A DNA stretch of 27,167 bases, from IMG/VR virus record IMGVR_UViG_3300046171_000071, positions 1 to 27,167 of that record. One strand, given 5' to 3'. This document shows, piece after piece, positions 1,986 to 27,106 of this stretch (the first letter of the stretch is position 1; each line of letters begins with the position of its first letter). The notes under the pieces were generated by a model. That model was given only the letters and a program-made list of their open reading frames with translations. It made no database searches and was not told where the DNA came from. Source of the DNA: a virus. The position numbers were made by a program, and so were the translations under genes.

Positions 1986-2242
1986 TACCAATCACACTCA
2001 ATTTGCGATGGATCATAGTTGTCGCGCAATTCATCATTTTCCGGCAAACCTTCCAGATAACATCTTGCATTGCGCCGAATTTCTAAAGGCAACAAACCTT
2101 GCAAGCTTAAAGAACAAGCCATTAAATAAATTCCAAACGCATCACGTTTTTCTTGTTCCCACGATTGTTGATCTTTGTTGACACCATAATCAACTAATAG
2201 GCGCATCAAGTCACGCACCCGAATGTCTTGTTCAAAACTCAT
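1985..2242 (-). CDS. Hypothetical helical protein
   Basis: 85 residues, mostly charged and helical (RDLMRLLVDYGVNKDQQSWEQEKRDAF), ending in an acidic tail. It has no membrane segment and no motif I recognise. The start at 2242 has a good Shine-Dalgarno (GGGAG about 8 bases upstream) and the stop overlaps the lipoprotein start by one base. It is the first gene after the replication-type gene and a 70-base gap with repeats. Confidence 0.65.
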   Translation of the reverse strand: MSFEQDIRVRDLMRLLVDYGVNKDQQSWEQEKRDAFGIYLMACSLSLQGLLPLEIRRNARCYLEGLPENDELRDNYDPSQIECDW

Positions 2243-2283
2243 TTTGCAAACTCCCGTTTTGCTGTGATAATTAAAAGTCGTAT

Positions 2284-2310
2284 CAGGTTTATTAACACCT
2301 GTCTACACCT
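2284..2310 (-). promoter_or_regulatory. Repeat cluster in the gap after the replication gene
   Basis: In the 70-base gap between 2242 and 2313 there is an inverted repeat CAGGT/ACCTG (2284-2288 and 2297-2301, 8-base loop). Two direct AGGTGT copies on the minus strand (2310-2305 and 2300-2295) lie exactly 10 bases apart, one helical turn. This could be an operator or a weak processing/termination hairpin. There is no clear U-tract, so I do not call a terminator. Confidence 0.35.
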
Positions 2311-2312
2311 TT

Positions 2313-3044
2313 TCACACATCAGCACCAACTTTCTTCAATTCGGCAATCACGTCTGGCCGGTTTTGCTTGTAAAAGGTTCGCATCCCGTCACTAAGCGTT
2401 TGCCACTGATCCAGCGTGATCATCTTGCGTTGTGGCGGTGTCCATTCGCTTGATTGCCCGTTAAACGGCTTAGAATAGCCCGTGGCGCGCTTTGGCTTCT
2501 TTTTGGCATCTCGTATGCACCAGTTCTGCCAAAAGGCTGTGAGGTCAATGTAGGCGGCTTTATTGCCGTTCTGTTTATCCCATAGCCTTATTGACTCTAA
2601 TACTTCGGCTGCATCGAGACCTTTGCTTTGAGCAAATTGGCGATCAGCCTCATCAGGTTCCCAATCAACAACTTTGGTTTTTCCCTTTTTATTATTTATT
2701 GTTCTATATTGTTCGGGTGACATATGGGTGTCACTATGGGGTGACATAGCTGTGTCACTAGGTGACAGGTTGTCACTATGGTTGGTCTGCAATGGGATGA
2801 TTTGGTATCTATTGGTCTTGTTTGATCGCTTTTCTATCGACAACAGCCCCATTTCTTCAAGCTTTTGCACCTTGCGGATCACAGTTCTTTCGCTGCAATC
2901 AGCCGCAATTGACAGCCATTTCATAGACGGCCACGCCACATTATAATCGTCATTATAACGGTCACAGATGCCAATCAGCACCAGCTTGGCGGTACTATCG
3001 CCCAGCGATTGTTCTAACGCCCAAGATACTGCTTTAATGCTCAT
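2313..3044 (-). CDS. Winged-helix replication protein (initiator-like)
   Basis: 243 residues from MSIKAVSWALEQ. Residues 1-70 form a winged-helix domain of the helix_turn_helix kind common in phage replication proteins (AWPSMKWLSIAADCSERTV, then RKVQKLEEMGLLSIEKR). Residues ~75-115 are a polar linker encoded by the GTGACA/TGTCAC array. The C-terminal part carries LTAFWQNWCIRDAKKKPKR, typical of O-protein-like initiators and helicase loaders. ATG at 3044 has GGGGGAA just upstream and overlaps the previous gene by 11 bases; an ATG 7 codons earlier is less likely. With no polymerase, primase or helicase seen here, this would recruit host replication machinery. The architecture recalls lambda O, whose gene contains ori. 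Confidence 0.7.
   Translation of the reverse strand: MSIKAVSWALEQSLGDSTAKLVLIGICDRYNDDYNVAWPSMKWLSIAADCSERTVIRKVQKLEEMGLLSIEKRSNKTNRYQIIPLQTNHSDNLSPSDTAMSPHSDTHMSPEQYRTINNKKGKTKVVDWEPDEADRQFAQSKGLDAAEVLESIRLWDKQNGNKAAYIDLTAFWQNWCIRDAKKKPKRATGYSKPFNGQSSEWTPPQRKMITLDQWQTLSDGMRTFYKQNRPDVIAELKKVGADV
2672..2776. other. Candidate replication origin inside the initiator-like gene
   Basis: Six alternating GTGACA/TGTCAC hexamers (2717-2776) are followed, in the coding direction of the gene, by an A/T-rich tract (2712-2672, including TTATTATTTATT). Clustered binding sites plus an adjacent easily melted region inside the replication gene is the layout of lambdoid ori. This is inference from layout; protein binding is not shown. 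Confidence 0.5.
2717..2776. repeat. GTGACA/TGTCAC inverted hexamer array
   Basis: Plus-strand starts: GTGACA 2717, TGTCAC 2729, GTGACA 2741, TGTCAC 2753, GTGACA 2762, TGTCAC 2771. The orientation alternates and the spacing is 12,12,12,9,9, always a multiple of three. The array therefore encodes a repeated Ser-Pro/Ser-Asp-Thr linker in the minus-strand protein without breaking the frame. Confidence 0.85.
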
Positions 3045-3309
3045 CGTTTTCCCCCAATATCTCAATGGTCAACGCCGCATATCCTATAATGTCCAGCAAG
3101 CTATCAAGATGCCGACAATCGTTTGACTGTAACCGCGCCATTTTGACGCCAATCATCGCAACGCCGTATTGCTCCGGTGTGACTTCTTTTTTAAACACGC
3201 GCGACATTCGCTTTGCGCCTTCACACCAGTTTTTGCGTAAATCGCCATAGTTTGACCCGCGTTGGGTCATAATATCTTGCACAGTCTGCAATGCTTTTGA
3301 ACGGTTCAC
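3034..3309 (-). CDS. DUF6378-type protein
   Basis: 91 residues matching the pattern I recall for DUF6378 phage proteins: an N-terminal RGSNYGDLRKNW, a central MIGVKMARL, and a C-terminal HLDSLLDIIGYAAL. The fold resembles MazG-like all-alpha proteins, and a nucleotide-related role has been suggested only by that resemblance. The start is GTG at 3309 overlapping the upstream stop by GTGA. The 3' end overlaps the initiator-like gene start by 11 bases, which suggests coupled translation. Confidence 0.75.
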   Translation of the reverse strand: MNRSKALQTVQDIMTQRGSNYGDLRKNWCEGAKRMSRVFKKEVTPEQYGVAMIGVKMARLQSNDCRHLDSLLDIIGYAALTIEILGENDEH

Positions 3310-19136: not shown

Positions 19137-20420
19137 TTAGGCATCAATGTCGAGACACGCAGCGAATGACTGGGCGTGACGTACGGCCAAGTCCATTTCC
19201 TGCATTACGCGGATGCGTACTGCACCGGTTGAACCGGCTGTGTATGGATCAACCAATACATCAGCGACACTATGAAAACCAAACAAAAGTTGACTAAAAT
19301 CGCCATATATCAATGCACTGGCGGTTGTTAATGTGCCTTTTGTAAGGTCAGATGGCACGTTGTTGGTAACTGCAACATCATAACCGTAAACGCTGTTCCA
19401 AGGCGCATCCATCAACATTACGCTGTCTGTTGACGCAACCTTTGGAGTGCTAGCCATATGTGACTTCACTTTAGGGTTAGTCAAGTAGGCAAGTGAATTG
19501 CCATTGATTGCAGCATTGTCAATTTCAACTTCTTTGACTAGGTCGGTGATGGCATCCCAAGTCAGTGCGCCACCGTTTGTGCCGATTGCGACTGAACCGA
19601 TACCGGCTGTTCCGATGATGCCTGTTGGCTCATTAGACCCGCCGCCTTCGATTGCAACGTCCTCAATTTTCTGGGCAATTGCATTTAAAAGGTCATCGCG
19701 GATGATTTGCTCAACAGATGGATCAGACTGGATCATCAACAAGCGGCTGATGTCTGTAAATGCACCCAATGACTTCGGTGACATTGTGATCTGTGAGAAA
19801 GTTGCATTCACCTCAGATGTTGCGCCATTTTCAGCAACGAAACCGGCTGAAACGCCAGTTGCCAGCTTTGGAATAGCAACGTCACCTTTGAGGCCAGTCA
19901 TAAAGCGTGCGCCAAGTTCATTGAACACCAAGCGCGAACGCAGTGCATCAACAAACTGATCACCCATATGATCTGTGCCGACCAAATTGCCTCCAGCCGA
20001 TGCTGTGCCAACAGTTAGGTCACGGCGGCCACCCCAGAATGAATCTGGAGCATAGAAGCCGCGTGCTTCGCGACCTTGACGCTTTGCAATTTCTTCAGAA
20101 ACTTCACGCTCAAGACCCTGCAAGCCAGAACCGTTTACCAGACCGCGAACAGCTTTTACAAACGAATATTGACGCTGCTCTTTAGCTGACATATCAACCG
20201 CACCGGCTGACTGCTCAAGTGGCTTTCCTTCGCCGATTGCGTCCAACAGAACGCCACGGAATTGTGCAACAGACTGACCTTCACCGATAGCTTTGTCAGC
20301 TAGGTCACGGCGGTTGTGTTTAACAGCAAGATTGATAATCTCGCTGGCATTCTTTTGAAAATCGCGCTTGGCTGCCTCAGTAGCGGCTTCGCGAATTTCC
20401 TCGTGATTTACTTCGGTCAT
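19137..20420 (-). CDS. Major capsid protein from an internal start
   Basis: A 427-residue product starting at the internal ATG 20420 (MTEVNHEEIREAATEAAKRD). The first ~125 residues are charged and helical like the cleaved delta/scaffold domain of HK97-type capsids, and the mature shell would begin near FYAPDSFWGG. The internal start has the best Shine-Dalgarno in the region, far better than the start of the long frame. The shell needs hundreds of capsid copies but few proteases, so this start probably supplies most capsid. HK97 and lambda use separate or nested genes for the same end. Confidence 0.75.
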   Translation of the reverse strand: MTEVNHEEIREAATEAAKRDFQKNASEIINLAVKHNRRDLADKAIGEGQSVAQFRGVLLDAIGEGKPLEQSAGAVDMSAKEQRQYSFVKAVRGLVNGSGLQGLEREVSEEIAKRQGREARGFYAPDSFWGGRRDLTVGTASAGGNLVGTDHMGDQFVDALRSRLVFNELGARFMTGLKGDVAIPKLATGVSAGFVAENGATSEVNATFSQITMSPKSLGAFTDISRLLMIQSDPSVEQIIRDDLLNAIAQKIEDVAIEGGGSNEPTGIIGTAGIGSVAIGTNGGALTWDAITDLVKEVEIDNAAINGNSLAYLTNPKVKSHMASTPKVASTDSVMLMDAPWNSVYGYDVAVTNNVPSDLTKGTLTTASALIYGDFSQLLFGFHSVADVLVDPYTAGSTGAVRIRVMQEMDLAVRHAQSFAACLDIDA

Positions 20421-21491
20421 TTTGACCTCCTTTTGTTTAATCACTGGTTCGACAAATTCAGCTTTGCGGTTCACGCCGACACCAGCGTCAGCGGGAACAG
20501 ATACAATGCTGGCTTCATACGGAACCCAAGATGAAATCGCGACTGTCCCATCACGCTCATTCTTTTGCTCCATTTCGCGGATTTGATAGCCGATGCTGAC
20601 GTTGCTTCGTATCCCATCCTTAACGTCTTGATACACCTCTTGAGCCAGTGCGCTTTTTCCAAAGCGAACCACAGACCGCAACTTGCGATCTGCTTGATCC
20701 AAATAGGTACGTTCAATAACGCCAATTTGTTTTGTCAGGTCGTGGTCTAACAGCAAAGGTGCGTGACCGCTATCCAACCTTGACAAATCTACTGCGCCAT
20801 CAGCGTGGCGCAAAACCTCTAAACCGAAAGAACGCTCAACGGGTTCTTCGCTTGAAATCGACATTCTGACGCGGCGGTCATCTTCTTCGACCATATCCGC
20901 AGCGCGTGCGCGAAACACAAGTTCGCCGCGATCAAGCCGATCCATTTCTTCATCGTCTTTATAACCAGCGGTTTCAACAACCGGCGGTGTCGCATCTGAC
21001 TTGCCGAAAGTGATAGTCACGCTGTCATCAGTTTCAACAATATTCTGAATGTGCCTATCCATTGGCTTTTGCTCATCCATCGGTTCAGCCCTTTCTATAA
21101 TCTCGCCAACATTATCAGCGATTTCTTCATTTAAATCTAGACCACGTTCGTCAATACGATCAAGCGCAGCATCTTTTGCCCTTGCCCAAGTCTGCCCAGC
21201 ATCACCGCCCCACGCTGCCCAAGCAACGCGACCTTTTGACGGATAACCTTCTTCGCCAGCACTAAACCCTTCAGCTTGCTTATCAACTTCGTGGCGGCTG
21301 AAAAAGCTGTGCATACGGCGCACAGTGTCGGCAGATAGTTCTTGCCGGTTAGCAAGCTGGGTCGCACGCGCAACCGCAACATCAGTGCCGCCTTGCTTGC
21401 CTTCTTCGCGCCACTTTTTAAATTTACGCGCTTCTGCGGCCATTCCTTCGGTCGGCTTCAAGTTGATTTCAACGCCTTTATAGGTCGCCAT
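19137..21491 (-). CDS. Prohead protease-major capsid fusion with N-terminal extra domain
   Basis: 784 residues from ATG 21491 (MATYKGVEINLKPTEGMAAE), with GGGGC upstream; an ATG five codons earlier is possible. Three parts are visible. Residues 1-110 are a small domain (RRMHSFFSRHEVDKQ, GYPSKGRVAWAAWGGDAG) known from phage proteins of unclear role. Residues ~210-345 are an S78/HK97-type prohead protease, with His ~250 (LLLDHD), Ser ~299 (IRSNVSIGYQ) and Glu ~326 (YEASIVSVPAD). Residues ~358-784 are an HK97-fold capsid with helical scaffold-like segment and core (SAGGNLVGTDHMGDQFVDAL, GFVAENGATSEVNATFSQIT). The gene overlaps the portal end by 14 bases. An internal Shine-Dalgarno and ATG at the capsid boundary suggest a second product. 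Confidence 0.88.
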   Translation of the reverse strand: MATYKGVEINLKPTEGMAAEARKFKKWREEGKQGGTDVAVARATQLANRQELSADTVRRMHSFFSRHEVDKQAEGFSAGEEGYPSKGRVAWAAWGGDAGQTWARAKDAALDRIDERGLDLNEEIADNVGEIIERAEPMDEQKPMDRHIQNIVETDDSVTITFGKSDATPPVVETAGYKDDEEMDRLDRGELVFRARAADMVEEDDRRVRMSISSEEPVERSFGLEVLRHADGAVDLSRLDSGHAPLLLDHDLTKQIGVIERTYLDQADRKLRSVVRFGKSALAQEVYQDVKDGIRSNVSIGYQIREMEQKNERDGTVAISSWVPYEASIVSVPADAGVGVNRKAEFVEPVIKQKEVKMTEVNHEEIREAATEAAKRDFQKNASEIINLAVKHNRRDLADKAIGEGQSVAQFRGVLLDAIGEGKPLEQSAGAVDMSAKEQRQYSFVKAVRGLVNGSGLQGLEREVSEEIAKRQGREARGFYAPDSFWGGRRDLTVGTASAGGNLVGTDHMGDQFVDALRSRLVFNELGARFMTGLKGDVAIPKLATGVSAGFVAENGATSEVNATFSQITMSPKSLGAFTDISRLLMIQSDPSVEQIIRDDLLNAIAQKIEDVAIEGGGSNEPTGIIGTAGIGSVAIGTNGGALTWDAITDLVKEVEIDNAAINGNSLAYLTNPKVKSHMASTPKVASTDSVMLMDAPWNSVYGYDVAVTNNVPSDLTKGTLTTASALIYGDFSQLLFGFHSVADVLVDPYTAGSTGAVRIRVMQEMDLAVRHAQSFAACLDIDA
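20420..20433 (-). promoter_or_regulatory. Strong internal ribosome binding site for the capsid
   Basis: Minus strand AAAGGAGGTCAAAATG: AAGGAGGT lies about 4-5 bases before the ATG at 20420, near-perfect complementarity to 16S rRNA. It lies exactly at the protease-capsid boundary inside an open frame. Confidence 0.85.
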
Positions 21492-22968
21492 CGTCTTGCC
21501 CCACATCTATTGATGGCTGCGCCGGTAATTTGTTGCCGAACGGCTGGAAAGCGGTGTCTAAGCCATAGCGGTCAGCCAGTTCGCTTTCGCGGTTAATCTG
21601 TTCAAAGATTTCTTCGGTATCGCGACCATATTGCGAATGCACATCCTGCAAGCTGACGATGCCGTTGTTCAGTGCGATCACGCTGGCGTTGATCTCTTTC
21701 TGTGGGTCAACCCAAGCAAAGCCGCGTGGCCGGTATATCACTTGATCGGCAAATAGGTCATATTTCCCCATTGGCAAATTGATACGGCCAACAGTGATAG
21801 CCATTTCTAGCCAAGCGCGATAGATCGGGTCAACAAACTGGTCAATCATAAATTGCTGGATTACTTTAAAATGGTCACGATCTTCGATAGTGCCTTGCCG
21901 GATTGATGAATAGCTAACGCCTTCAAGGTTGTTTGCCAGCGACACATAGCTGACACCAAGGCCGGACGCGATCCCGCGCAATATACCCTTTTCAAACTCC
22001 GCAAAGCTGTCAGTCGGGTTTTGTGGGTCAAATGCAGTGAACGACATTCCAGTCGGCAATTGCATAAAGCTGGCCCGGGGTGCCGCATCAATTATTGGGT
22101 TGTGATTGTCATAATCATCACCGACAAAGCCATCACCTTCGGGGCTAGTGAAAAAGCCCATCTTTGACGCAGCAACCCGCGCATTGACCAAAGTGGCTTC
22201 TTCGTAACCGTCTAGCATCTTTAACCGGCTTAATACGTTGCTCATCCAAGGCACGCCACGGGTTTGCCCAGCGCGGTCTTGCATATAGCAATGAATGATC
22301 TGATCGGCTGGCACAATCTTATGATGCCGCTTTGTGCGTGAACCATAGCCTTGATCGTGATGCGGGTGATCTTCAAACAGATAATAATTGACCGGCTTGC
22401 CAGTGCGCCGGTCTAATTCAACGCCCATACGCACTTCATTGCCGTTGTTTAGGCGTGCGTCATAACCTTCATCAAGATAATCGGCTTCAAGAAACTTTAG
22501 CGAAAAGCCAAATGGGTTTCCGGCTGGGTTCTTAATCTTCTGAATTAGCACTTCGCCATCGCGTGTTAGCGTCTCAATGAACAGCCGTTGCGCTTGTGAC
22601 CAAGATATGCGGCCATCAACAGTGCAAAAACCAGCCCTGCCCCACTGCTGCCAAGCCTGTTCAACGATCCTGTTGCCAACGCTATCCAACGAACCGTCAT
22701 CATTGCGCTTGCGAACCTGTATCCGAACGCCAGCCGCACCAACTACGTTTGTGGTCATTATCTGCAAATAACGCCGCGCATATGGATGATTGCGACTGAT
22801 TTCGCGGCACCTATCGCGCAGAATACGCAGTGATGGTTTGATTTCGCTATCTGCCGAACGGCTGCTTGATACAAAATCGCTGAATAGTCGGCCAGTATCA
22901 GCCCCGTGAAACGCCCTTGCCATCTTTTTTGGCTGGGGCTTTGCTTTGAAAAAGTCAAAGATGCCCAT
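21478..22968 (-). CDS. Portal protein, lambda family
   Basis: 496 residues: SLRILRDRCREISRNHPYARRYLQIMTTNVVGAAGVRIQ, WQQWGRAGFCTVDGRISWSQAQRLF, TRDGEVLIQKI, GVPWMSNVLSRLKMLDGYEEATLVNARVAASKMGF, and AEFEKGILRGIASGLGVSYVSLANNLEGVSYSSIRQG. All are in the order expected of GpB-type portals of the lambda family. Twelve copies form the channel through which DNA is packaged and to which the head-tail joiner attaches. Starts 2 bases after the previous stop. The frame is intact and of usual length. Confidence 0.92.
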   Translation of the reverse strand: MGIFDFFKAKPQPKKMARAFHGADTGRLFSDFVSSSRSADSEIKPSLRILRDRCREISRNHPYARRYLQIMTTNVVGAAGVRIQVRKRNDDGSLDSVGNRIVEQAWQQWGRAGFCTVDGRISWSQAQRLFIETLTRDGEVLIQKIKNPAGNPFGFSLKFLEADYLDEGYDARLNNGNEVRMGVELDRRTGKPVNYYLFEDHPHHDQGYGSRTKRHHKIVPADQIIHCYMQDRAGQTRGVPWMSNVLSRLKMLDGYEEATLVNARVAASKMGFFTSPEGDGFVGDDYDNHNPIIDAAPRASFMQLPTGMSFTAFDPQNPTDSFAEFEKGILRGIASGLGVSYVSLANNLEGVSYSSIRQGTIEDRDHFKVIQQFMIDQFVDPIYRAWLEMAITVGRINLPMGKYDLFADQVIYRPRGFAWVDPQKEINASVIALNNGIVSLQDVHSQYGRDTEEIFEQINRESELADRYGLDTAFQPFGNKLPAQPSIDVGQDDGDL

Positions 22969-23562: not shown

Positions 23563-25448
23563 TCACCGCCAAGAATTAACAAAGCCGCCCTGTCTTGGTC
23601 GGCGTGCCAGTGGGTTCGACTGTTGCGGCTGCGGTGGTGCTTCTGGTTCCGGTGCATTTACGACCCTGTCGGCAACAGCGTTAATATTCAGCGACAAAAT
23701 GCAAAGCGCAGCATATGCGTACACCCTGCAATCAAGTGCTTCGTTTCTTGTGCGCGTCTTGACAAAATCCCTGCGCTGGAAAGCCTTTTTGGTATTTAGT
23801 GACAATTTTTTCACTATTCGCAAGCTGCTGATAATACTCATCTGACCGACCGGCTGGGAAATGGCAATATCCCGCACCCTCTGATTGTATCCTAAGTCTG
23901 GAAAAAATCAATTCCTTGATCGGGAAAGTGCCGACGGTAAACAATTTTATCTTTCCAATGTTGTTTTTGCTAGGTCTGCCAACAAGCGGACGCTGTTCGC
24001 CGCCCATACCTTTGATGGCAAATATGCGTCTGCCTTCCCTTGGCCGAACAAAGTTGTAGACCGCTTGCGTGTAATGACCGCCACTGTCGATGCACGCAGC
24101 CCTAATGCCTAGCTGCCGCCCGCTTTCGGTCGTGAAACTGGCTTTTAGGATATTATCAAGATCATTCCACAGATGCGGCGTGGATGGGTCGCCATATAGC
24201 GTTTTGTAGGATATTGACCAGCTCTCCTCATCGCGTCCGAAACCGACCAATTCACATTCGAGCCGATCATCTTGCACGTCAATTCCGGCTGTTATAACAA
24301 CTATATCATCCGGCAGGGCATCGCCCCAATCATCTTCGCGGCTTTGAAAGTCAATATCACCGACAGTTTGGCCTTCATCTTCCCACGTTTCTGCCAAAAA
24401 CGTATTTACAAATACGCGGAGGGTCTCCGGCGACTTTTTGGCAACTAGAAAATCACGCGCTGCATCTGCAAGCGGCGTCCAAGGGCTATATAAGGCCACT
24501 TAAATGAAAACCGGCTATTTTATGCTCTGGATTTTGTGCAACCCACTCACCAGCCCTGACAGCGCGATAACGATCCGCGTCATCCCATACGCTGCCGCAG
24601 CCTTCGCATATATAGTTGGCGGTTTCGGGCTTGTCCTTTTCCCATTGCACTTGTGACCATTTCAGCACTTGCTTATGGCCGCAGTCGTGACACGGCACAT
24701 AATACTGCCGCTGGTCGCTTTCTTCATAAGCCAGTTCAATTCTGGACGCGCCTTTATTGGTTGGCGTGCTAACCATTACGATTTTGCGGTTATATGTAAA
24801 GGTTGACGTTCTTTTCCGGCCTAGATCGATTCGGATCGCCCTCTGTACCGGCTGAATGTGGGAACCTGATCCACCTCATCAAAGAAAACGCACCTAACAG
24901 GCCTAGATGCCAAGCCAGCCGGTGAATTAGCCCCGACCATAGCAATGTAGCCGCCAACAAATGATTTTTGCAGTAACGTGTTGCCACTATCGCGGCTGCG
25001 CGGGTCTTTTACCGCGTTCTTTAGAGCTGGCGTATCCCGCAGCATAGGCGCAAGCCGGTCGTTACTCCACATCTTGCTCATATCCAAAGTCGGCTGCACA
25101 ACAAGAATAGGGCGACGGGTCTTGCGATATATAATAGCCGATAGCGTTGTTTATGATTTCAGTCTTGCCAATCTGTGCGCCGGTCATAAAAACAATCGTT
25201 TCGGTTGCCGGATCGGAAATAGCACGCATCATCCCGCGCTGGTATGGTGCGCGGTCGGTTGACCATTTACCGGCCTCTGCGCTGCTTTCACGCGAAAGCA
25301 CGCGATACTGGTCTGCCCATTCATCAATGGCAAGATCAGGCGGCGGTGCTAGGCTGGCTAGTGTTTTCTGCGCTATCTTCGCCAGATTCGCTGCCCCGTA
25401 AAGGTTGAGTGACTCTGACTTCGACTTCGCTGATTTCTTTGAGTGCAT
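23563..25448 (-). CDS. Terminase large subunit, GpA family, with five +1 frame breaks
   Basis: Motifs of a GpA terminase follow in order across six frames. WADQYRVLSRESSAEAGKW and Walker A TGAQIGKTE; break near 25109; LAPMLRDTPAL and Walker B CVFFDEVDQVP; break near 24855-24859; SAGTEGDP; break near 24831; MVSTPTNKGASRIELAY with zinc CHDCGHKQ/CEGCGSVW; break near 24491; LYSPWTPLADAARDFLV, nuclease aspartates TAGIDVQDDRLE and CIDSGGHYT; break near 23777; then RNEALDCRVYAYAAL. Each break is a single extra base in the same direction, and no other stops or missing parts are seen. Restored length is about 626 residues. The start at 25448 overlaps the small subunit by 113 bases and is uncertain. 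The ATPase packages DNA; the nuclease cuts concatemers. Confidence 0.85.
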
Positions 25449-25875
25449 CGTAAATGTTATCTTTCAAAATGCTTTTTACTTCAATCAGTTTTTCAGCGGC
25501 GTAAACTTCGGGTGCCACCCGCTGCGGGAAGGCTAACAGCTTTTGCCGCATATTCTGGCTAACATCGATCCAAGCACGTTCCACATCGCTTGCCGGTATA
25601 AGTTGCTCCCTGATCTGCTCTTTTTCCATTTCGGCCAGATCAGCGCGTGCTTTTGTTAATCTGGTGCGGTGCGCGTTGTAATCATCGCCACTGGTATCGG
25701 CTTTTATGGATCGCTCTTTAAGGTAACGAATATAGCCTTGAATGGCTGGCACCAGTTCATAGCGGCCACGCTCCGCTTTCGGTATTACACCCTCTGCCGA
25801 TAGCTGTTGCACGCGGCGCGGCGTTAAATCTAACAGCTTGCTAATAAAATCAAGCGGAAACGTGGTCGGTGCCAT
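25336..25875 (-). CDS. Terminase small subunit, Nu1-like
   Basis: 179 residues. The N-terminal winged helix (DFISKLLDLTPRRVQQLSAE, GVIPKAERGRYEL) is the Nu1/MerR-like DNA-binding head that recognises the packaging site. A coiled middle follows (RTRLTKARADLAEMEKEQIREQ, then DVERAWIDVSQNMRQKLLAF), then PQRVAPEVYAAEK and an acidic end. The start at 25875 overlaps the methyltransferase gene by 26 bases; the end overlaps the large-subunit frame by 113 bases, long for this pairing. It forms a ring with DNA and recruits the large subunit. Confidence 0.88.
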   Translation of the reverse strand: MAPTTFPLDFISKLLDLTPRRVQQLSAEGVIPKAERGRYELVPAIQGYIRYLKERSIKADTSGDDYNAHRTRLTKARADLAEMEKEQIREQLIPASDVERAWIDVSQNMRQKLLAFPQRVAPEVYAAEKLIEVKSILKDNIYDALKEISEVEVRVTQPLRGSESGEDSAENTSQPSTAA

Positions 25876-27106
25876 TGTTCATCTCGTTAAATGTTTTGCC
25901 GGTTTTTTCGTTAATTGCTATTAAGCCGGTAAAGTCTTGCCAGCGTTTAACAATCACATCAACGTATTTAGGGTCAAGCTCCATCAACCTAGCTTGCCGG
26001 TTTGTTTTCTCGCACGCAATCAAAGTTGAGCCGCTGCCGCCAAAAACATCTAAAATAGTGTCACCGGACTTGCTGCTGTTTGCTAACGCTTTTTCTATTA
26101 GTTCAACCGGCTTTTGCGTTGGATGTACATATTCGCCAGTTGCACCTCTACTCATCTTCCAAATATCTGATTGGCTTTTATCACCCTGCCAGCCATCACC
26201 TTTTACATAGAAAATAAACTCGTGTTGCGGTCTATAATTAGACTGACCAAGACCAATGCTTTTTTTGTCCCACACAATGCAGTTTGCTATTTTTAGGCCA
26301 GCATCAACGATAGCGGCTTCAAACTCAGAATATGTTCGCCAAGTGAAACAAATATAATAAGCCGCACCGGATTTGCTTGAGGCGTAAGCAGCACTGATAG
26401 CTTGCCGCACTAAATTGATTAAATCATCTCCTTGAAACTCATCGCCCAGAATCATTCCGTGTGCCTTAACTATCGCGCCCTTAGGTGTAGACCCTGCCGC
26501 TCTACCACCGCCATAACTCATTCCATAAGGCGGGTCTGTAAAAACCATATCGGCTGGCCTAGTTTCCATTAATGTATCAACCGCATCGATGCTGGTGCTA
26601 TCCCCGCACATAACCCGATGCCGCCCAAGCTGCCAAATATCGCCTAGAACGGTTACTGGCGTTTCCGGCTCCGGTGGTACTTGATCCTCGTCAACCAGCC
26701 CCTCTGTTATAGCTTCGGCCATTAACGCGGCAAGTTCATCGTCATTGAAGCCGGTCTTGCTTAGATCGTAGTTTTCCAGATCAAGGTCGGCTAATTCCAA
26801 GGCCAGCAAGTCGTCGTCCCATTTCGCCTCTTGGCTAACGCGGTTGTCAGCTATGCGATAGGCTTTGATCTGGTTTGCCGTTAGGTCGGTTGCAATATGG
26901 ATAGGCACCTCTTTCAGTTGCAGCTTGCGTGCCGCCGCCAAGCGCGTATGTCCAGCGATTACAACCATTTCAGCGTCAACCACTATTGGCTGCCGCCATC
27001 CAAATTCCTTTAATGAACCGGCAACTTTATCCACCGCCGCGTCATTCTTTCGTGGGTTCTTCGCATATGGAATAACCTCATCGATCCCAACCGTTTGAAT
27101 TTCCAT
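25850..27106 (-). CDS. ParB-like nuclease domain fused to a beta-class DNA methyltransferase
   Basis: 418 residues. Residues 1-110 are a ParB/Srx-like domain (VIPYAKNPRKND, IVVDAEMVVIAGHTRLAAAR) usual in phage methyltransferase fusions. Residues ~150-395 are an N6-adenine or N4-cytosine methyltransferase: motif IV TDPPYG (190-195), then HPTQKPVEL (328-336), then motif I FGGSGS (355-360). Motif IV before motif I defines the beta class, which includes CcrM-type GANTC enzymes. In alphaproteobacterial phages such enzymes may imitate host CcrM or block restriction. AGGAG lies about 14 bases before ATG. Its end overlaps the small terminase start, so it is part of the packaging operon. Confidence 0.9.
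   Translation of the reverse strand: MEIQTVGIDEVIPYAKNPRKNDAAVDKVAGSLKEFGWRQPIVVDAEMVVIAGHTRLAAARKLQLKEVPIHIATDLTANQIKAYRIADNRVSQEAKWDDDLLALELADLDLENYDLSKTGFNDDELAALMAEAITEGLVDEDQVPPEPETPVTVLGDIWQLGRHRVMCGDSTSIDAVDTLMETRPADMVFTDPPYGMSYGGGRAAGSTPKGAIVKAHGMILGDEFQGDDLINLVRQAISAAYASSKSGAAYYICFTWRTYSEFEAAIVDAGLKIANCIVWDKKSIGLGQSNYRPQHEFIFYVKGDGWQGDKSQSDIWKMSRGATGEYVHPTQKPVELIEKALANSSKSGDTILDVFGGSGSTLIACEKTNRQARLMELDPKYVDVIVKRWQDFTGLIAINEKTGKTFNEMNNGTDHVSA

Follow-up and report, generated by a model that had tools for sequence, protein, structure and literature searches.

Why should the coding sequence of a phage replication initiator carry six alternating GTGACA/TGTCAC hexamers beside an AT-rich run? 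The original prediction for this locus, which lies in a 27,167-base stretch of viral DNA that we analysed as a whole (the window), took the hexamers for initiator sites and the run for an unwinding element, as in lambda O/ori, and held that the origin and a repeated Ser-Pro-Asp-Thr linker had been shaped together. The features on which the question turns are as follows.

2313–3044, minus strand: gene for an O-like replication initiator of 243 aa with a winged-helix HTH_36 N-terminus; start codon ATG 3044
2799–3038, minus strand: winged-helix DNA-binding domain, residues 3–82 (AlphaFold2 model, pLDDT mostly >80, order H-H-H-H-E-E)
Inside the winged-helix domain, minus strand: putative recognition helix CSERTVIRK (AlphaFold2 model)
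2717–2776, minus strand: putative iteron array, six alternating GTGACA/TGTCAC half-sites (motif positions and conservation in relatives)
2762–2776, minus strand: dyad 1, GTGACA-N3-TGTCAC (coding-strand reading)
2741–2758, minus strand: dyad 2, GTGACA-CAGCTA-TGTCAC, N6 (coding-strand reading)
2717–2734, minus strand: dyad 3, GTGACA-CCCATA-TGTCAC, N6 (coding-strand reading)
2670–2710, minus strand: AT-rich tract, putative unwinding element (lowest 40-bp stability in the window)
2313–2663, minus strand: helical C-terminal domain (kept across differing HTH/array types)

The initiator gene and its hexamer array

The start of the gene was fixed at ATG 3044 because a related locus (L010) has a stop just upstream and the alignment of the relatives begins at MSIKA. 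The protein matches the HTH_36 profile (PF13730) above the cut-off (E=4e-10), as well as two PHROGs of replication initiation or O-like proteins (phrog_1032 and phrog_391; E=2e-19 and 6e-17). It gave no match to Phage_rep_O (PF04492), the lambda O family; the domain search found neither RepA_N (PF06970) nor Bac_RepA_C, and the RP-C model was matched weakly by 18 of the 24 alignment members. AlphaFold2, with an input alignment made up of window and locus sequences only, predicted a confident winged helix at residues 3–82, helices at 132–182 and 211–238, and disorder over residues 88–119, which match almost exactly what the array and the AT-rich tract encode. The nearest solved folds in Foldseek were RepA_N plasmid initiators, a weak similarity (best E=5e-3, whole-chain TM 0.24) that supports the modelled winged-helix fold and nothing beyond the fold; a sequence search of solved structures returned chance-level matches only. 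The C-terminal domain has no Pfam match of its own and is probably the replisome-recruiting part. Among the adjoining genes we recognised neither a DnaB helicase nor a P-like loader, and the next small genes had no family match; lambda and several relatives do have a helicase or loader partner gene, with none annotated in the relative C72C1. Such a partner is usual for lambda-type origins without strictly defining them. The small gene upstream of the initiator (3034–3309), which overlaps its start by 11 bp, matches DUF6378 and PHROGs labelled phosphofructokinase.

The hexamers begin at 2717, 2729, 2741, 2753, 2762 and 2771, exactly the steps of 12, 12, 12, 9 and 9 that had been claimed, and they encode the peptide repeat SDNLSPSDTAMSPHSDTHMSP. 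Six hexamers per 60 bp compare with a maximum of two when the window was randomised 200 times by a second-order Markov model. When the gene of a 99%-identical relative with the same array (L001) was subjected to 5000 synonymous-codon shuffles, with protein and codon usage fixed, six sites never arose and five arose in 2 of them. The inverted order of the hexamers had been called unusual, which it is not, because the lambda iterons are themselves inverted repeats (PMC6022878, PMC5043065). We consider the array better read as three palindromic TGACA/TGTCA dyads forming the functional unit than as six separate sites. The core of dyad 2, GACACAGCTATGTC, is identical in a relative (L287) whose protein is about 45% identical. 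An Rfam search over 2200–3200 found nothing, and promoter-like sites were no more frequent than expected by chance.

On the coding strand, the AT-rich tract (2710 to 2670) comes directly after the dyads. The A/T-rich run predicted beside the hexamers is indeed there, and by nearest-neighbour energy no other 40-bp stretch in the entire window is less stable; over 60 bp it ranks second. Cumulative GC skew, which had been suggested as a check, does not switch at the array, and gene orientation dominates the skew. Many HTH_36 initiator genes (L106, L107, L110, L322, L347 and others) have about three tandem repeats of 11–12 nt (such as TAACCATCAAT or CCTAACAATGAA) in the AT-rich tract just past their arrays; these repeats, detected by eye and simple autocorrelation only, could constitute a sequence-specific unwinding or single-strand binding element.

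Selection on the DNA of the array and the AT-rich tract

Another suggested check was the conservation of the hexamers at synonymous positions in relatives. Among 17 distinct relatives of the same HTH type, the half-sites are essentially fixed, with 1 of 30 bases variable as against 21 of 36 in the spacers. The synonymous difference per identical-residue codon pair, which is 0.2–0.45 along most of the gene, drops to 0.03–0.11 over codons 89–108 and to 0.000 over codons 105–120, on the AT-rich side, and is back up after codon 125. The resulting trough covers practically the same interval as the original prediction.

2673–2780, minus strand: synonymous-constraint trough delimiting the likely origin (synonymous differences, 17 relatives)

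The fall of synonymous divergence to 0–0.11 over this interval means that the DNA of the array and the AT-rich tract is itself under selection. In the 22 sequences of a second HTH class, whose array is different, synonymous divergence likewise dips over that array, at codons 81–112.

One possible explanation is that the repeats were selected as a Ser-Pro-Asp-Thr peptide linker, the DNA pattern being a by-product, and the array steps of the window, all multiples of three, do code for a repetitive linker. This protein-first reading is contradicted by the shuffles, which never reached six sites, and by codons that stay fixed while the residues change. The invariant TGACA-N6-TGTCA is found with SDTHMSP, YDNHMSH and SDIAVSP, and four relatives at 42–48% protein identity (C72C1, L282, L287 and L290) carry the same kind of dyad in quite different linker peptides. 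It is further contradicted by the step sizes in our survey of related genes (see below), which are mostly 21–24 nt and often 22. HTH class B1 and many further arrays have 22-nt steps, which shift the reading frame from one repeat to the next; their spacing is set by DNA geometry and not by peptide repetition. We therefore consider a peptide-driven origin of the repeats extremely improbable, and steps that are multiples of three are not general among the related arrays. The more general proposal of a joint shaping of origin and linker is supported, and it is the DNA that imposes the dominant constraint.

Alternatively, the array might be an autoregulatory operator, by which the protein blocks its own transcription without initiating replication. 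HTH proteins often bind their own genes, and the dyads do resemble operators. The conserved element, however, includes the AT-rich tract, which has no HTH half-sites and yet shows zero synonymous change and the lowest 40-bp stability in the window; moreover, the site lies deep inside the gene, as do the lambda and RepA_N origins. An operator in place of an origin thus seems unlikely to us, and the array may have an operator function in addition to an origin role.

Exchange of the HTH domain and the array, and its breadth

The homologues fall into several HTH types and C-terminal types, and the array follows the former. HTH type A, found with C1 (n=10) as well as C2 (n=6) C-termini, has five or six TGACA/TGTCA sites in every case. 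HTH type B1 is likewise paired with C1 (n=19) and C2 (n=3), always has four to six CTGCA/TGCAG/CCGCA sites, and lacks TGACA/TGTCA save for one site in one sequence. Proteins with near-identical C-termini and different HTH domains accordingly have different arrays. Most B1-C1 loci match the window at 75–88% up to about 3018 and at 85–91% from about 2711, with no similarity between, which places one swap boundary at codon 9 and the other where the array meets the AT-rich tract, and leaves that tract outside the block.

2712–3017, minus strand: exchangeable cassette of HTH domain and array (nucleotide similarity to class B1 relatives absent here, 75–90% on either flank)

Homologues without the array, which had been expected to speak against the prediction, do exist, but they carry a different HTH domain together with a different array. 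At the level of sequence, this comparison shows that phages trade the predicted DNA-binding half of the initiator together with its matching sites, as a single unit. The physical adjacency of HTH domain and array could be sufficient alone for their co-inheritance, which is no proof of recognition; we therefore argue for function from the long-term constraint within each HTH class, not from co-inheritance.

The same pairing bears on whether the array is some other cis site that lies in the initiator gene by chance, such as one for packaging (pac) or partition. In C72C1 the terminase small-subunit gene is close to the replication gene, and the window encodes a ParB-like/methyltransferase fusion. 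The terminase genes of the window, however, are about 20 kb from the array, and the array type tracks the HTH type, not the neighbouring genes. We reject a pac site on these grounds and regard any such other cis site as very unlikely.

Some observations concern the window outside the initiator. The fusion of a ParB-like domain to a DNA methyltransferase (25850–27106; phrog_498 and ParB-like PHROGs) adjoins the small terminase gene. The terminase large subunit (23732–25448) appears to be broken up into several short minus-strand ORFs that differ in frame (25448–25062, 25099–24821, 24776–24486 and 24499–23732), as if by frameshifts from sequencing errors or decay. Head protease and major head protein regions lie within one 789-aa ORF (19137–21506). 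A scan of genome contigs for a host prophage found no relative.

Our survey covered 231 unique genes, representing 47 HTH types (clusters below 80% identity). A linker 6-mer array above the synonymous-shuffle expectation was called in 39 of the 47 clusters and in 0 of 47 for the control, the last 240 nt (p<0.05, both strands counted; a few clusters stand at 0.045–0.05). In 32 of 47, the least stable 30 bp start between −10 and +60 nt from the array end, where about 10% would be expected. The positive control, lambda O, gave an array at p=0.007, with its 40-bp stability minimum starting 2 nt past iteron 4; the surveyed genes of Acinetobacter AP22 and Vibrio D59 gave no clear array. A lambda-style intragenic origin thus appears to be widespread in a different initiator family, HTH_36. 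Our search of the openly accessible literature found no paper stating the intragenic-array pattern family-wide for HTH_36 initiators. Synonymous constraint combined with the in-linker array test could place origins in many unannotated phages.

The survey also pointed to a residue that might be related to the half-site. In the putative recognition helix, an Arg just ahead of the conserved Lys/His (ERTVxRK) tends to go with TGAC, and Ala, Tyr, Gly, Ser or Gln at that position with TGC (Arg: 10 TGAC, 1 TGC; non-Arg: 6 TGAC, 18 TGC; Fisher p=5.6e-4, with related clusters). Because the association was noticed before testing, the clusters are related and the crude classifier miscalled some arrays, we treat it as a lead only. 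Taken together, the results could mean that the HTH_36 phage initiators are one large family in which the winged helix and the in-gene iterons form a self-contained specificity cassette, recombined at two fixed points, the gene start and the array/AT-tract boundary, to change replication identity, with one recognition-helix residue (Arg for TGAC, others for TGC) predicting the half-site class. We offer this joint reading tentatively and think it somewhat more apt to fail than to hold. If it is true, cassette swaps may allow phages to escape from decoy origins or origin-directed nucleases. Since HTH domain and sites travel as a unit and the remainder of the gene stays, natural variants could serve as matched sets for working out the DNA-recognition rules of winged-helix initiators.

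A putative origin and the systems it resembles

Judged from comparative sequence data, the array and the AT-rich tract (about 2670–2780) are very probably the replication origin of the phage, a lambda-like one that lies within the initiator gene itself. The gene has the layout seen in lambda, pSK41 and pPR9, so the best reading is an intragenic origin to which the HTH domain of the same gene would bind. The proposal of initiator sites and an unwinding element has strong comparative support, which is not experimental proof. The N-terminal winged-helix domain would bind the TGACA/TGTCA dyads as dimers, and the strained nucleoprotein complex would open the AT-rich tract. The C-terminal helical domain, tethered by a disordered peptide that the origin itself encodes, would then recruit a helicase or primase of the replisome. 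HTH domain and dyads make up a single cassette that is inherited together. The array, the DNA-level constraint, the cassette swap and, in the model, a disordered linker peptide are established here. The analysis narrows the likely origin in a group of uncultured phages down to about 110 bp, and it adds evidence of selection on DNA within a coding sequence, mapped swap boundaries, and breadth among HTH_36 initiators.

In plasmid pSK41, a winged-helix N-terminal domain binds Rep boxes inside rep, the C-terminal domain contacts primase, and the protein can do without the linker that the origin encodes (PMC5703833). The window gene is like such RepA_N initiators, its closest solved fold, in its winged-helix N-terminal domain, in-gene sites, origin-encoded linker and separate C-terminal domain; unlike these Firmicute plasmid proteins, it is without RepA_N and Bac_RepA_C domains. 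In pPR9, the RepA_N domain and the ori (about 500 bp) have been replaced by a phage-type pfam13730 (HTH_36) domain, with the C-terminal domain kept, and the hybrid mini-replicon replicates (PMC5703833). The pUSA03 rep, named in a review as another such hybrid, is RepA_N in the record examined and thus no evidence for HTH_36. This gene (L381, 101–1060) contains four copies of TGTCAAAAGGACAC at 23-nt steps, with AT-rich repeats of 15 nt after them; the half-sites are close to TGTCA/TGACA, and the layout is as in the window.

The DNA-binding domain of Vibrio cholerae PLE RepA covaries with three semi-palindromic iterons while its C-terminal domain is conserved, and its specificity swaps have occurred repeatedly and were shown to be functional (PMC8263062). 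The PLE origin, however, is intergenic, whereas the window array sits between two protein domains of one gene. Gene 18 of Salmonella phages P22 and L has differing iterons in related initiator genes, proposed as origins (PMC8022706); unlike the window array, these repeats are of other sequence and come from single genomes with no selection test. In repABC plasmids the origin lies within the sequence that codes for the initiator, RepC, and includes an AT-rich region that is essential; in contrast to the window, no iterons were found in repC of p42d (PMC3155836).

A close parallel in design is lambda, where O dimers bind 18–19-bp hyphenated inverted-repeat iterons inside O and about 40 bp of adjacent AT-rich DNA melt (PMC6022878, PMC5043065). 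The window differs in that its protein is HTH_36 and not Phage_rep_O, in having three dyads of another sequence in place of four iterons, and in that no P gene was recognised next to its initiator. In both, palindromic iterons about 20–24 nt apart are followed within the initiator gene by an AT-rich tract of some 40 bp, with an N-terminal DNA-binding domain encoded ahead of the array and another domain after it. The lambda-type intragenic origin is already known as a kind, and the putative origin of the window joins that kind.
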